Part shown: positions 8,415 to 18,966 of the stretch, one piece after another
How the letters are laid out: every line of letters begins with the position of its first letter
Numbering within the stretch: position 1 is the first letter of the stretch
Origin: Chloroflexota bacterium
GTDB taxonomy: Bacteria; Chloroflexota; Anaerolineae; SpSt-313
Direction of reading: 5' to 3'
Length of the DNA stretch: 64,000 bases
Assembly: GCA_029553955.1 (NCBI GenBank)
Contig: JAKPJZ010000113.1
Coordinates: 1-64,000 of the forward strand
Notes under the pieces: generated by a model
Seen by the model: the letters and a program-made list of their open reading frames with translations, nothing else
What the model was told of the DNA's origin: nothing
Databases searched by the model: none
Program-made: the position numbers and the translations under genes

Positions 8415-8444
8415 ATTATACCCCGCCTCTTGAGCGAGTGTCAA
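8415..8444 (-). promoter_or_regulatory. ilvE promoter, TTGACA-18-TATAAT
   Basis: Minus-strand -35 TTGACA (8444-8439) and -10 TATAAT (8420-8415), spacer 18. The -10 box contains the stop codon of the truncated acetyltransferase ORF, so ilvE can be transcribed independently of the arg genes. Confidence 0.85.
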
Positions 8445-8583
8445 AAGAAGCGCGACTTGCGGCACAGCGGATGTTCTGGCACACATAGTCCTGCGAGGGG
8501 GACAGGATCTCGCCCCGCGCCGCGCGCTCGTTGATGATGGCCAGCATCTGGGGCACGTCGTGAATGTGTGGCCGGCGGATCAT
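8416..8583 (-). pseudogene. Truncated duplicate of the argA acetyltransferase
   Basis: A 55-codon ORF whose ATG overlaps the argA stop (ATGA). Its residues 10-40 align with argA residues of the same region: NERAARGEILSPSQDYVCQNIR versus NGYAARGEMLPKSLNQVYQNIR. After that the sequence is unrelated (CAASRASFDTRSRGGV) and stops inside the ilvE -10 box. The acetyl-CoA-binding part of the GNAT fold is absent, so it cannot be an active enzyme. It is probably a tandem duplication truncated by a deletion. A retained small-peptide role is possible but unsupported. Confidence 0.8.
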
Positions 8584-9095
8584 TTTCGACCCACCTCCAG
8601 GTCGCGCAGCACGGCCACCTCGTCGCACTGCGGGAACTTGATGCAGTCGATGCAGTCGACCCAGATCTTGCGGGGCAGCGACTCGCGCTCGACCGTGCGA
8701 AAGCCCCAGCGGGCGAAAAAGCGCGGCTTGTAGGTCAGCGCAAACACCTGCGGCAGGCCCATCTGCCCGGCGTCGCGCAGCAGCGCCTGCAGGATCAGCC
8801 CACCGATCCCCTGGCGCCGCAGGCCCTCGGCCACCGCCAGCGAGCGCACCTCGCCCAGGTTGTTCCACAAGACGTGCAGGGCGCCGCAGCCGGCAATTTC
8901 GCCGTTGCGCTCGGCCACGCAAAAGTCGCGGATGTTCTGGTACACCTGGTTGAGCGACTTGGGCAGCATCTCGCCCCGCGCGGCATAGCCGTTGATCAGG
9001 CGCACCATCGCCTCCACGTCGCCCACCGTCGCCGGGCGTACCGCTATGCCCGGCAGCACGCCTGTGACGGGCAGCACATTGTCCTCAGCTTGCAT
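8580..9095 (-). CDS. argA: GNAT-type N-acetylglutamate synthase, single domain
   Basis: A 171-residue GNAT acetyltransferase that probably makes N-acetylglutamate, the first step of arginine synthesis. It is the short form, without the kinase-like domain of classical ArgA. Motif A reads LGEVRSLAVAEGLRRQGIGGLIL (the acetyl-CoA loop is RRQGIG), and the C-terminal WVDCIDCIKFPQCDE stretch is typical of this clade. No argJ is seen nearby, so a dedicated synthase would be needed. It follows argC-argB-argD in the same direction. The ATG at 9095 is preceded by GGTGG. Confidence 0.85.
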   Translation of the reverse strand: MQAEDNVLPVTGVLPGIAVRPATVGDVEAMVRLINGYAARGEMLPKSLNQVYQNIRDFCVAERNGEIAGCGALHVLWNNLGEVRSLAVAEGLRRQGIGGLILQALLRDAGQMGLPQVFALTYKPRFFARWGFRTVERESLPRKIWVDCIDCIKFPQCDEVAVLRDLEVGRK

Positions 9096-9170
9096 CCACA
9101 ACACCACCTACTCTTGAATCCAGGGAAACCGGCTTTCACGCTATGCACCCACCCGGTGCAGATCCCTTTG

Positions 9171-9361: not shown

Positions 9362-10558
9362 TCACTCGGCCGTAGCCAGCACCTGGTCGATGATGGCCAC
9401 GGCCTCGTCGATGTGTTCCTTGCTGACCACCAGCGGCGGCAGCAGGCGCAGCACGCGATCGCCCGCGTTGGCCATGACAAGCCCGTGCTCATAGCCGCGG
9501 CCGATGAGCGGCGCCGCGTCGACGGCGAGTTCCAGGCCCCAGATCAGCCCGCAGCCGCGCACGTCACGGATGATGGGATGGCGCGCCTTGAGGCCGTTGA
9601 GCCCGGCCTCGAGCTCGCGGCCCCGCTCGCGCACGCCGGCGAGGAAGGCTGGGGCGCTCACGCGTTGCAGCACAACCCGCGCCACGGCGCAGATGATCGG
9701 GTTGGCGGCAAAGGTCGAGCCGTGGTCGCCCGGCACGATGGCGTCGGCCACACGCTGCGTGAGGAGCACGGCGCCGATGGGCAAGCCCCCGCCGAGGGGC
9801 TTGGCCAGGGTCATCAGGTCGGGCGCCACGCGAGCGGCCTCGTGCGCCCACAGCGTGCCGGTGCGCCCCAGGCCGCACTGCACCTCGTCAAAGATGAGCA
9901 GGGCGCCCTGCTCGTCGCAGGCGCGGCGCAGCTCACACAGGAACTCGGGCCTGGCCGGGTTCACGCCGCCCTCGCCCTGCAGCGGCTCCACGATCACCGC
10001 CCCCGTGTGCGGGCCGATCGCCGCACGGGCCGCCGCCACGTCGTTGAACGGCGCAAAGCTCACCCCCGGCACGAGCGGCTCGAAGGGCTGGCGATACTTT
10101 TCGCGGTGCGTCGCCGCCAGTGCGCCCATGGTGCGGCCGTGGAACGAGCCGGTGAAGGCCACGATCCCGGCGCGGTCCTCGCCGGGGTGGTTCACCCTCT
10201 GCCACTTGCGGGCGAACTTGAGCGCGGCCTCGCAGGCCTCGGTGCCCGAGTTGGAAAAGAAAGCCCGGTCGGCGAAAGAGCGCTGCACCAGGTCGCGCGC
10301 CAAGAGCGCCTGCGGCGCGCTGTGGTACAGGTTCGAGCAGTGCGCCAGCCGGCCGGCCTGCGCCGTCAGCGCCGCCAGCACCTCGGGGTCGCCATAGCCC
10401 AGCGCATTCACCGCGATGCCCGAGACACAGTCGAGGTAGCGCCGGCCCGCGGCGTCATACAGGTACACGCCCTCGCCGCGCTCCAGCACAAACGGTGCCC
10501 GTTTGTACGTCTGCAAGACGTACTGTTGCTCAAGCTGGACGATATCCTCAATATCCAT
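9362..10558 (-). CDS. argD: Acetylornithine aminotransferase
   Basis: A 398-residue class III PLP aminotransferase, fourth step of ornithine synthesis (N-acetylglutamate semialdehyde to N-acetylornithine). Visible features are SNSGTEACEAALK for PLP phosphate binding, FTGSFHGRTMGALAAT, Asp224 in IFDEVQCGLGRTG and the PLP lysine Lys253 in TLAKPLGGGLPIGA. Length is typical. The ATG at 10558 follows GAGGAG. It lies in the arg cluster, flanked on both sides by perfect palindromes. Confidence 0.93.
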   Translation of the reverse strand: MDIEDIVQLEQQYVLQTYKRAPFVLERGEGVYLYDAAGRRYLDCVSGIAVNALGYGDPEVLAALTAQAGRLAHCSNLYHSAPQALLARDLVQRSFADRAFFSNSGTEACEAALKFARKWQRVNHPGEDRAGIVAFTGSFHGRTMGALAATHREKYRQPFEPLVPGVSFAPFNDVAAARAAIGPHTGAVIVEPLQGEGGVNPARPEFLCELRRACDEQGALLIFDEVQCGLGRTGTLWAHEAARVAPDLMTLAKPLGGGLPIGAVLLTQRVADAIVPGDHGSTFAANPIICAVARVVLQRVSAPAFLAGVRERGRELEAGLNGLKARHPIIRDVRGCGLIWGLELAVDAAPLIGRGYEHGLVMANAGDRVLRLLPPLVVSKEHIDEAVAIIDQVLATAE

Positions 10559-10625
10559 CGCTCTGCTCCTCGGCCGCTCTGGGCCGGCTCTCATGCTCTG
10601 CGCTAACCCGGCACGGGACCTTGTG

Positions 10626-10771: not shown

Positions 10772-11533
10772 CTAGTTCCCTGATACGACGCAGGTGCCTC
10801 CCCTGCAGCCCAACCCGGCCAGATCCACGATCCTCGCCTCAGCCACGCCGGCGGCGACGACGTCGAGGGCGGCGCGCACCTTGGGCACCATGCCGCCCGA
10901 GATGATGCCGCGGCCGATCCAGTCGCCGGCCTCGGCGGCGCTGAGGCGGGCCACCACGCGGCCGTCGACGAGGACGCCAGGGACGTTGGTCACAAAGGCC
11001 AGGGCCTGGGCGCCGAGGGCACGCGCCAGGGCCATGGCGGCGTGGTCGGCGTTGACGTTGTAGCGCCGGCCCTCCGGCCCCAGTGAGATCGGCGAGACGA
11101 CCGGCACAATGCCCTGGCCCAGCAGGAGCTGCAGCGGCGCCAGGTCCACCGCCGTCACCTCGCCCACCAGGCCCAGGTCGCCCGCCGGGTGCCGCGCCGG
11201 CTCCACGCGCAAGAGCCCGCCGTCGACGCCGCTCAGGCCCATGGCCGCGATGCTGCAGTTCACCAGGCGGGCCACCAGGCGCTTGTTCACCGCCCCCGAG
11301 AGCACCATCTCGGTGACGGCCAGCGTCGCCTCGTCGGTCACGCGCAGGCCCTCGATAAAGCGCGGCTCCAGGCCCAGCGCCCCCTGCAGCCGGGCAATCT
11401 CCTTGCCGCCGCCGTGCACCAGCACCGGCGCCGCCTGCGCCCGCAGACCCCCAATAGCCTCCACCAGGCCGGCAAGAAAACGCTCGTCGTCAATCTCGTT
11501 GCCGCCGACCTTGAGCACGATGATGGGTAGCAT
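10772..11533 (-). CDS. argB: Acetylglutamate kinase
   Basis: A 253-residue amino-acid kinase that phosphorylates N-acetylglutamate, the second step of arginine synthesis. Features are KVGGNEID at the N-terminus, VLVHGGGKEI for the phosphate-binding glycine loop, YNVNADHAA for substrate and GGMVPKVRAA near the C-terminus. It is slightly shorter than most ArgB proteins and lacks the extra N-terminal helix of arginine-inhibited hexameric enzymes, so feedback inhibition is less likely. The ATG at 11533 has AGGAG six bases upstream. Confidence 0.94.
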   Translation of the reverse strand: MLPIIVLKVGGNEIDDERFLAGLVEAIGGLRAQAAPVLVHGGGKEIARLQGALGLEPRFIEGLRVTDEATLAVTEMVLSGAVNKRLVARLVNCSIAAMGLSGVDGGLLRVEPARHPAGDLGLVGEVTAVDLAPLQLLLGQGIVPVVSPISLGPEGRRYNVNADHAAMALARALGAQALAFVTNVPGVLVDGRVVARLSAAEAGDWIGRGIISGGMVPKVRAALDVVAAGVAEARIVDLAGLGCRGGTCVVSGN

Positions 11534-11619: not shown

Positions 11620-12639
11620 CTACAATCTCAACCCCGCCGTCTCATCCAGCCCAAACATCACGTTCATATTCTGCAGCGCCTGCCCGGCCGCGCCTTTGCC
11701 CAGGTTGTCGATGGCGCTGACGACGATAGCCTCGCCGGGCACACCGGCGTCGTGCAGCGAGATGACGCAGCGCTCGGTGCCCGTGGCCCAGCTCATGGTG
11801 GCCATCGTGCCCTCCGGCAAGACGTGAACCAGCGGCTCGCCGGCATAGGTCTCCTGGTAGAGCCGGCGCAGGGCGGCGGCATCGTGCTGCGGCGGCACGC
11901 GCACGTACAGCGTGGAGAGCATGCCACGGGTCACCGGCACCAGGTGCGGCGCAAAGGTCACGCGCACCGGCTGCCCCGCCAGGCGGCTGAGCTCCTGCTC
12001 CATTTCGGGGATGTGGCGGTGCACATGGCCGACGTTGTAGGGCGCGAGGCTCTCGTTGACCTGGCAAAAGTGGGTGGTCGGGCTGGGGCTGCGCCCGGCA
12101 CCCGAGACGCCCGACTTGGAGTCGACAATGACGTGGCCGCCTTCGAGCAGCCCCTGCGCCGCCAGCGGATAGCAGCCCAGGATGACACTGGTGGGGTAGC
12201 AGCCGGGGTTCGCCACGAGCTGCGCCCCGCGGATGGCCTCGCGGTGCAGCTCGGGCAGGCCATAGACTGCCTCGGCCAGAAGCTGCGGCGCCTCGTGGGC
12301 CGTCTTGTACCAGCGCTCGTAGACTGCCGCGTCGGGCAGGCGGAAGTCGGCCGAGAGATCGACCACGCGCACGCCCGCCTCGCGCGCCCGGCGCACCGTG
12401 GCCATCGACGCCCCGTGGGGCAGCGAGCAGAAGGCGCACTCCACCTCGCCGAGCGGCGCCTCGTCGGCGCGCACCAGAGCCACATCGTCGAGGCAAGGGT
12501 AGCTATCGGAGAGCCAGCCGCCCGCGCTCTGCTCGGAGGTGGCAAACACCAGCTCGGCCGACGGATGCCGGCGCAGGAGTTGCACCAGCTCATAGCCCGC
12601 ATAACCCGTAGCGCCAAACACACCGGCGCGAATCTTCAT
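11620..12639 (-). CDS. argC: N-acetyl-gamma-glutamyl-phosphate reductase
   Basis: A 339-residue NADPH-dependent enzyme, third step of arginine synthesis. The nucleotide-binding loop is VFGATGYAGYELVQLL near the N-terminus and the catalytic cysteine is Cys147 in VANPGCYPTS. SGVSGAGRSP and HRHIPEMEQEL are further family motifs. It is the first gene of the argC-argB-argD-argA cluster. Its ATG at 12639 is preceded by GGAGG and by a roughly 290-base leader holding an arginine-rich peptide and a terminator hairpin. Confidence 0.95.
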   Translation of the reverse strand: MKIRAGVFGATGYAGYELVQLLRRHPSAELVFATSEQSAGGWLSDSYPCLDDVALVRADEAPLGEVECAFCSLPHGASMATVRRAREAGVRVVDLSADFRLPDAAVYERWYKTAHEAPQLLAEAVYGLPELHREAIRGAQLVANPGCYPTSVILGCYPLAAQGLLEGGHVIVDSKSGVSGAGRSPSPTTHFCQVNESLAPYNVGHVHRHIPEMEQELSRLAGQPVRVTFAPHLVPVTRGMLSTLYVRVPPQHDAAALRRLYQETYAGEPLVHVLPEGTMATMSWATGTERCVISLHDAGVPGEAIVVSAIDNLGKGAAGQALQNMNVMFGLDETAGLRL

Positions 12640-12764
12640 CCATCCTCCAACTCTAGATCGTGCGCACAAACCCGTAGCCTGGGGCCTTGTGCCCGTCTGC
12701 CTCACCACGGCACCGCATCCGCCGAGACGACGCCCACAAGGGGCTGCGGGTTGCGCTCACGACC

Positions 12765-12805
12765 AAGAAAAGAGCCAGCTCCCCGGAAGCCCGGAAAGCT
12801 GGCTC
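12765..12805 (-). terminator. Attenuator terminator hairpin upstream of argC
   Basis: As transcribed from the minus strand, the stem is GAGCCAGCT paired with AGCTGGCTC (12805-12797 with 12780-12772). Inside it a CCGG/CCGG pair forms, and TTTTCTT follows directly. It lies between the leader peptide and argC, 41 bases after the leader stop. The octamer GGATAGCT at 12840-12833, just after the leader stop, can pair with AGCTTTCC in the 5' arm (one U-U mismatch), giving a possible antiterminator. Confidence 0.82.
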
Positions 12806-12845
12806 AATCAGCACTGATCTTCGCCCATGCGGAGCTATCCAGACC

Positions 12846-12902
12846 TCACGTCCGGCGCCGGCCCCCTCGAGTTCGTCGCAAGCACTGTACAGGCGCGATC
12901 AT
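12846..12902 (-). CDS. Arginine-rich leader peptide of the arg operon attenuator
   Basis: An 18-residue ORF, MIAPVQCLRRTRGGRRRT, ending in TGA. Six of 18 residues are arginine, in codons CGA CGA, CGA, and CGG CGC CGG. GAGGGA lies 10 bases before the ATG. It starts about 27 bases after the predicted transcription start and ends 41 bases before a terminator hairpin that precedes argC. This is the classical layout for ribosome-stalling attenuation. With charged tRNA-Arg the ribosome would reach the stop and mask GGATAGCT, so the terminator forms. With arginine starvation it would stall, allowing the antiterminator. The mechanism is inferred from sequence. Confidence 0.8.
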   Translation of the reverse strand: MIAPVQCLRRTRGGRRRT

Positions 12903-12935
12903 CGAAATATGGTCCCTCGAATAGTATTGCGGGCG

Positions 12936-12964
12936 AGTGTAGCCCCGCTTGGCCATAGTGTCAA
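12936..12964 (-). promoter_or_regulatory. arg operon promoter, TTGACA-17-TACACT
   Basis: Minus-strand -35 TTGACA (12964-12959) and -10 TACACT (12941-12936), 17 bases apart. Predicted transcription start is near 12929, giving a leader of about 290 bases before the argC ATG. Confidence 0.85.
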
Positions 12965-13026
12965 ATCGGACATGATACCTAATGCGCGAGGGGCTCCACC
13001 ACGCGCTCGTGTACCGGGCGCGATTG

Positions 13027-13072
13027 CGTACGCATCACGCATTACGCATCACGCCTCACGCCTCACGCCTCC
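13027..13072. repeat. GCGTGAGGCGTGATGCG-type repeat overlapping the RNase J stop
   Basis: Tandem variants of GCGTGAGGCGTGATGCGTA on the minus strand. The RNase J stop codon TGA (13065-13063) lies within GAGGCGTGAGGCG. A matching copy overlaps the stop codon of the histidine kinase at 57098. Confidence 0.8.
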
Positions 13073-18802: not shown

Positions 18803-18831
18803 TTGACAGACTGCCCTTGCCCCACTATAAT
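18803..18831 (+). promoter_or_regulatory. Consensus promoter of tRNA-Gly, TTGACA-17-TATAAT
   Basis: Both hexamers match the sigma-70 consensus exactly and are separated by 17 bases. Transcription would start near 18838, just before the tRNA. Confidence 0.95.
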
Positions 18832-18851: not shown

Positions 18852-18924
18852 GCGGGTGTAGCTCAGTTGGCAGAGCGTCTGCTTCCCAAGCAGAATGTCA
18901 TGGGTTCGAATCCCACCACCCGCT
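18852..18924 (+). tRNA. tRNA-Gly (anticodon CCC)
   Basis: A 73-base cloverleaf: acceptor GCGGGTG with CACCCGC, D-loop AGCTCAGTTGGCAGAGC, anticodon arm TCTGC-TTCCCAA-GCAGA (anticodon CCC), T-loop GGGTTCGAATCCC, discriminator T. The CCA end is not encoded. It has a perfect promoter upstream and an intrinsic terminator downstream, so it is transcribed alone. Confidence 0.97.
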
Positions 18925-18966
18925 CCTGATCCAAGGGCCCGGAAACGGACCCGTGGCTCAATGACA

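Follow-up and report, generated by a model that had tools for sequence, protein, structure and literature searches.

The DNA analysed here, referred to as the window, is a stretch of 64,000 nucleotides from a genome of the phylum Chloroflexota, class Anaerolineae. Four genes follow one another on its minus strand in the order argC, argB, argD and a short argA-like gene:

11620..12639, minus strand: argC, N-acetyl-gamma-glutamyl-phosphate reductase (TIGR01850, E 5.6e-121)
10772..11533, minus strand: argB, acetylglutamate kinase (TIGR00761, E 9e-65)
9362..10561, minus strand: argD, acetylornithine transaminase (PRK01278, E 1e-143; TIGR00707)
8580..9107, minus strand: short ArgA-like N-acetyltransferase (PRK07757, E 4e-58; related to PRK07922)

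The last of these is probably an N-acetylglutamate synthase, as predicted from sequence. Among named records, the closest argC was that of the metagenome-assembled genome Anaerolinea sp. Tomsk_2_67_199, with 75% identity. The assembly from which the window derives contains argJ and gave no match to argininosuccinate synthase (PF00764) or carA (PF00988), absences that are probably attributable to assembly gaps.

Between rnjA (RNase J family, end at 13063) and the start of argC at 12639 lies a leader element (folding z = -3.4), comprised of the following parts:

12936..12964, minus strand: promoter TTGACA-17-TACACT, with -35 TTGACA (12964-12959), a 17-nt spacer and -10 TACACT (12941-12936)
12913..12918, minus strand: possible ribosome binding site GAGGGA, weak, 10 nt from the ATG (sequence)
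12846..12902, minus strand: leader peptide ORF MIAPVQCLRRTRGGRRRT, 18 codons, ATG at 12902 to TGA at 12846
12850..12855, minus strand: segment 1, CCGGAC
12839..12855, minus strand: protector hairpin 1:2, CCGGAC-GUGAG-GUCUGG (folding; RNAalifold consensus of 28 relatives)
12833..12844, minus strand: segment 2, antiterminator strand GUCUGGAUAGCU (pairing analysis, masked folding)
12789..12800, minus strand: segment 3, AGCUUUCCGGGC, common to the antiterminator and to the 5' arm and loop of the terminator
12772..12805, minus strand: intrinsic terminator hairpin 3:4, 15 bp with 10 G-C, -29.1 kcal/mol, its 3' arm being segment 4
12764..12771, minus strand: U-rich terminator tail, TTTTCTT (sequence)

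Most of these parts had been named in the initial annotation, and its promoter, its 18-codon ORF with six Arg codons and its hairpin with a T-rich tail ahead of argC were all recovered. The promoter is also kept in two genomes of the same family. The Arg codons occupy positions 9, 10 and 12 (all CGA), 15 (CGG), 16 (CGC) and 17 (CGG) of the leader. The ribosome site that it listed does exist but is mediocre. The protector hairpin, which overlaps the final Arg codons and the stop of the leader ORF, had been overlooked.

Segment 1 can pair with 2, segment 2 with 3 and segment 3 with 4, and both the parts and their exclusivity are demonstrated by sequence and computation. The word GGATAGCT (12840-12833) begins five bases past the leader stop, as had been described, and its complementarity to the 5' arm of the terminator, interrupted by one U-U, proved to be longer than claimed, with 11 of 12 positions paired between segment 2 (12844-12833) and segment 3 (12800-12789). 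In order to place a ribosome on the leader, masked folding was performed with the RNA ending at segment 3 and with a ribosome footprint that extended 12 nt beyond the A-site codon. The predicted probability of the antiterminator pairs was approximately 0.9-1.0 with the ribosome at Arg12 or Arg15, and most of the antiterminator was kept upon a stall at Arg16. The value was 0 with the ribosome at Arg17 or at the stop codon and approximately 0.2 with the ribosome at the first Arg cluster, where hairpin 1:2 survives. The earlier proposal that a ribosome at the leader stop favours termination is consistent with this model. Its counterpart, that a ribosome stalled at the Arg codons frees segment 2, held for Arg12-Arg15 and partly for Arg16 but not for Arg17 or the first cluster; stalls at the former codons should permit read-through and a stall at Arg17 should not. 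The uncoupled state is not clearly predicted to be super-attenuated, because the ribosome-free RNA ending at segment 3 still favoured the antiterminator (0.69). Under equilibrium folding the complete terminator was the more stable final fold in every case, and the choice of termination must therefore be kinetic. The decision between terminator and antiterminator is likewise kinetic in the trp and his attenuators.

This arrangement is interpreted as a ribosome-mediated transcription attenuator of the classical type, which would sense charged tRNA-Arg and control the argC-argB-argD(-argA-like) operon; no RNA, expression or ribosome data are available, and the probability of this reading is put at roughly 93%. 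RNA polymerase would start near 12929, an inferred position, and a ribosome would follow on the leader ORF, with coupling of transcription and translation in Chloroflexota being assumed. Given ample Arg-tRNA, the ribosome would reach the stop codon and cover segment 2, the terminator (12805-12772) would form and the RNA would end near 12765, in vivo termination at this point being inferred. The response to arginine is likewise inferred: with scarce Arg-tRNA, the ribosome would stall at approximately Arg12-Arg15 and block the 5' arm of the protector hairpin, leaving segment 2 free to pair with segment 3 before segment 4 has been transcribed, such that the terminator would be pre-empted and argC transcribed. 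Were no ribosome loaded, or were it to stall early at codons 9-10, the protector hairpin would compete for segment 2.

In order to locate further copies of the element, a covariance model built from 28 argC leaders was run on 60 genomes. Matches at E <=0.01 were obtained in 40 of the 60, and 64 matches were listed as compared with fewer than one expected by chance, an expectation that depends on E-values that are themselves rough. The argC leader was the single match in the genome of the window, which was searched by model and family only. Matches before argG carry Arg-rich leaders (e.g. MSERIGRIRRRANEVPGRRSG); this argG element was found in several genomes and was absent from the two closest relatives of the window. 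Lys-rich leaders (e.g. MRTLLLLVKQIKRGKKPDLWSG, MQNVVMTYTPKKQSESKKPDPQSG) occupy the scaffold at ten loci where the downstream gene encodes homocitrate synthase or LysX from the LysW pathway of lysine synthesis. Pro-rich leaders (e.g. MGRLSSTTRFVSPNSPNPTPDCRSG, MPAIRPPSLPAPEHRT) occupy it at six loci, and also at three others, before prolyl-tRNA synthetases of both families (I and II), either directly or one gene ahead, or before one of the other genes named below. No leader element was seen for argJ, and no Arg leader-terminator pair lay directly upstream of carA at the loci read; one genome had a model match with a mixed Arg/Lys leader approximately 450 nt before carA.

Two further arrangements were observed among these loci. 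Some Pro-rich leaders precede a metallophosphoesterase-like or TIGR00730-like gene, and at two loci such a gene precedes proS. Tandem double attenuators, in which both members have hairpins and a Lys-containing leader of their own, lie before homocitrate synthase at G059:C13:13029-13313 (L348) and G004:C56:29292-29547 (L345).

When R, K and P were counted, the residue expected for the class of downstream gene was the most frequent in 29 of 33 model-found loci (permutation p 1e-5). Leaders in this test were hand-picked from the ORF list, and a frame-free count without ORF choice returned the same p of 1e-5. Gene identity was confirmed with NCBIfam for eight representatives, and the others were assigned because their sequences visibly resembled these. 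The agreement between regulatory codon and downstream gene, demonstrated computationally, is the strongest argument that the codons themselves may be the elements that are read.

Codon choice within the leaders was compared with that of the genes. The 354 Arg codons of 73 leaders comprised 34% CGU, 30% CGC, 21% AGG, 9% CGA and 5% CGG, as compared with 8% CGU, 55% CGC, 3% AGG, 8% CGA and 23% CGG in argC genes of the same clade, a shift to CGU and AGG and away from CGC and CGG. CGA, which supplies all three Arg codons of the first cluster of MIAPVQCLRRTRGGRRRT, accounted for 2% of the Arg codons in those window genes that were sampled. RNA stems may force part of this bias; other frames of the same leaders contained 16% CGU and 9% AGG. 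According to theory, attenuators favour codons of tRNAs that lose their charge first (PMC1183508). The shift is a possible test of selective tRNA charging, and the charging behaviour of CGU and AGG in these organisms is not established.

These results bear on a rival in which the leader is a nascent-peptide sensor that arrests the ribosome by binding free arginine (or ornithine) inside the tunnel, with no codon awaiting charged tRNA. The fungal arginine attenuator peptide and SpeFL are precedents for such a sensor, an Arg-rich peptide does precede an arginine gene here and 11 of 97 leaders share an RSPR-like motif. Only a slight chance is left to it, however, since no arrest peptide is conserved: the Arg clusters are the sole sequence that the leaders share, and length and order differ. 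Lys- and Pro-rich leaders on the same scaffold fit codon reading rather than one ligand pocket, and Arg codon usage so unlike that of the genes fits tRNA charging.

Conservation of the proposed attenuator was examined by locating argC orthologues in the class and phylum and reading 184 upstream regions. A hairpin resembling an intrinsic terminator was found within 330 nt of argC in 114 of 129 Anaerolineae regions; reverse complements gave 11 of 129 and dinucleotide-shuffled sequences 54 of 387. To count as an Arg-rich leader, a short ORF had to contain 3 or more Arg within 8 codons and to end before the terminator. The presence of such ORFs before argC in relatives was a check proposed in the initial annotation, and it was passed: terminator and Arg-rich ORF occurred jointly in 91 of the 129 regions (71%), as compared with 9 of 645 shuffles (1.4%) and 2 of 129 reverse complements; examples include MTTPIVIRRPTPATRHPSG, MKHFPTQLFRRYRRRQTIGLGFSVV, MSTLADALFIRRRRPDSFHGLAWCVA and MQRPVRDRRRRAPACVPGAIEPTRAKVA. 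When all twenty amino acids were tested in the 129 Anaerolineae regions, arginine was the only residue strongly enriched in the short ORFs (z 11.2, the next being 2.7), and under a stricter threshold of 4 in 8 codons it was found in 59 regions, with the next amino acid in 6. Fifteen of the 129 regions had no terminator, and further regions had no clear Arg ORF. The joint arrangement was rarer in other classes of Chloroflexota (10 of 42 regions, as compared with 4 of 210 shuffles). In one family outside the Anaerolineae, argC is preceded at four loci by an Arg leader, MLTNLFSPALRLRRPRTNEVRWACAVCAG, that is well conserved, together with a terminator of -30 kcal/mol; the arrangement is therefore not confined to one class.

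The competing stems were also found to vary together among relatives, and a second check proposed in the initial annotation was thereby passed. Across 73 dissimilar representatives, the mean energy of the segment 2:3 duplex was -17.35 kcal/mol for native pairs, as compared with -12.57 kcal/mol when segment 2 was shuffled (Wilcoxon p 3e-12) and -14.12 kcal/mol when segment 2 was swapped in from other loci (p 2e-7). The surveyed loci share kinship, so these p-values overstate independence and are indicative only. GGTCTGG/CCAGACC was the commonest 2:3 stem, and many loci have quite different complementary words, e.g. GTTGGTCTGGC/GCCAGACCAAC, GCCGTGTGTC/GACACACGGC, GTGAGGTCA/TGACCTCAC and GCTCTGTTC/GGACAGAGC. 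Applied to a clade of 28 sequences, RNAalifold recovered both the terminator and hairpin 1:2 without prompting; 6 of the 13 pairs carried two-sided compensations, some of them in the terminator. Within this clade (A2), no 2:3 covariation beyond that of shuffles was detected, and the proper 2:3 register paired in 86% of cells, as compared with at most 48% for slid registers. Segment 2 is almost fixed in A2; that alignment is therefore uninformative for 2:3, and the case for coevolution rests on the wider set, in which conservation and coevolution are both demonstrated.

An ordinary terminator, whether of rnjA or constitutive, combined with a chance Arg-rich ORF in a GC-rich genome could produce a superficially similar locus. 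Arg codons are common in GC-rich sequence, and in 22% of regions shuffling yields 4 or more Arg within 10 codons. This explanation is nonetheless barely credible in view of the frequency of the joint arrangement, the coevolving antiterminator, the promoter conserved between rnjA and the leader and regulatory codons that track the downstream gene. Chance origin as such was ruled out by the shuffles, reverse complements, cross-locus pairing and other-class controls.

The initial annotation had contrasted attenuation with the usual control of arginine synthesis by ArgR. No match to the ArgR-family repressor (Pfam Arg_repressor, PF01316) was detected in the genome of the window, which is about 92% complete, or in any of 60 Anaerolineae genomes, and the same search was positive in 9 of 14 reference (control) genomes. 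The class thus appears, on present sequence, to have no usual arginine repressor, and ArgR control was rejected as a candidate for this locus. The leader itself matched no Rfam family, T-box included, at the gathering threshold, and nothing credible was returned at a relaxed threshold. A translation-independent tRNA-sensing T-box or arginine riboswitch, suggested by the highly structured leader and by T-boxes reported for arginine genes in other bacteria (PMC1262725), is accordingly considered negligible, since no such RNA was recognised and an Arg-rich ORF is conserved instead.

The comparisons thus leave attenuation, as originally proposed for argC, well supported as a putative mechanism. 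The evidence leans, with room for doubt, towards a wider hypothesis in which a single homologous scaffold of Anaerolineae (a hairpin encoded ...PDxxSG, antiterminator GUCUGGAU and terminator) would act as a switch for amino acids in general, having passed from operon to operon and been adapted by exchange of its regulatory codons: Arg codons at argC and argG, Lys codons at the LysW-type lysine operon and Pro codons at prolyl-tRNA synthetase. The scaffold would stand in for ArgR, and its preference among Arg codons for CGU, AGG and CGA, where the genes prefer CGC and CGG, would follow selective tRNA charging.

Descriptions of classical attenuation usually concern a few amino acids, in Proteobacteria and Actinobacteria. 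The enteric trp, his, leu, ilv, thr and pheA attenuators share with the present element a short ORF rich in codons for the product, a protector hairpin and an exclusive antiterminator and terminator; the differences are arginine as the regulatory residue, argCBD as the genes and Chloroflexota as the host. A comparative study of attenuators in many phyla has reportedly been made by Lopatovskaya, Seliverstov and Lyubetsky (2010, Mol Biol), and it could extend to the cases described here. The open literature searched, which excluded subscription literature, yielded neither a biosynthetic attenuator for Arg, Lys or Pro in Chloroflexota nor a leader peptide that controls lysine synthesis. The putative mechanism is therefore already known as classical attenuation, and its Arg, Lys and Pro targets in Chloroflexota are apparently unreported within that literature. 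In a 2013 multi-phylum survey that included five Chloroflexi genomes, attenuators for His, Leu, Thr and Trp were the only ones listed besides those for Ile/Val and Phe, and a gammaproteobacterial origin was suggested (PMC3766115). Attenuators of trp, cys and branched-chain genes in Actinobacteria are also leader-peptide controls outside Proteobacteria, but no conserved RNA element was found there before arginine operons (Seliverstov et al. 2005, PMC1262725). Repression by ArgR/AhrC serves the same genes and physiological purpose but through a protein repressor of the family that was undetected here. The speF leader (orf34/SpeFL) and the fungal arginine attenuator peptide resemble the element in their Arg codons or Arg-related leader-peptide control (PMC6386406) but work by other routes and on genes for polyamines or carbamoyl phosphate, whereas a four-segment terminator switch precedes arginine synthesis genes here.

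If correct, attenuation would be the chief control visible for arginine synthesis in this deep class, which seemingly lacks ArgR. The Arg, Lys and Pro versions of the scaffold would represent a natural codon-swap experiment on how ribosome stalling sets operon specificity, and with approximately 100 Arg leaders the theory that attenuators rely on the codons of tRNAs first to lose charge could be tested across six codons. Furthermore, the leader residue could aid annotation of ambiguous pathways, e.g. LysW-type Lys/Arg clusters.

Other features of the window were recorded in passing. Short direct repeats of the GCGTGAGGCGTGATGCGT type lie right behind rnjA, upstream of the arg promoter (13020-13065, minus strand). 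Directly after the ArgA-like gene, the start of a second N-acetyltransferase-like frame (MIRRPHIHDVPQMLAIINERAARGEILSPSQDYVCQNIR; 8417-8582, minus strand) is apparently a truncated tandem copy running into the ilvE promoter, a full-consensus sigma-70 sequence (TTGACA-18-TATAAT, 8415-8444, minus strand). A second full-consensus sigma-70 promoter (TTGACA-17-TATAAT, 18803-18831, plus strand) precedes tRNA-Gly CCC (18852-18926), which is followed by a terminator at 18966.
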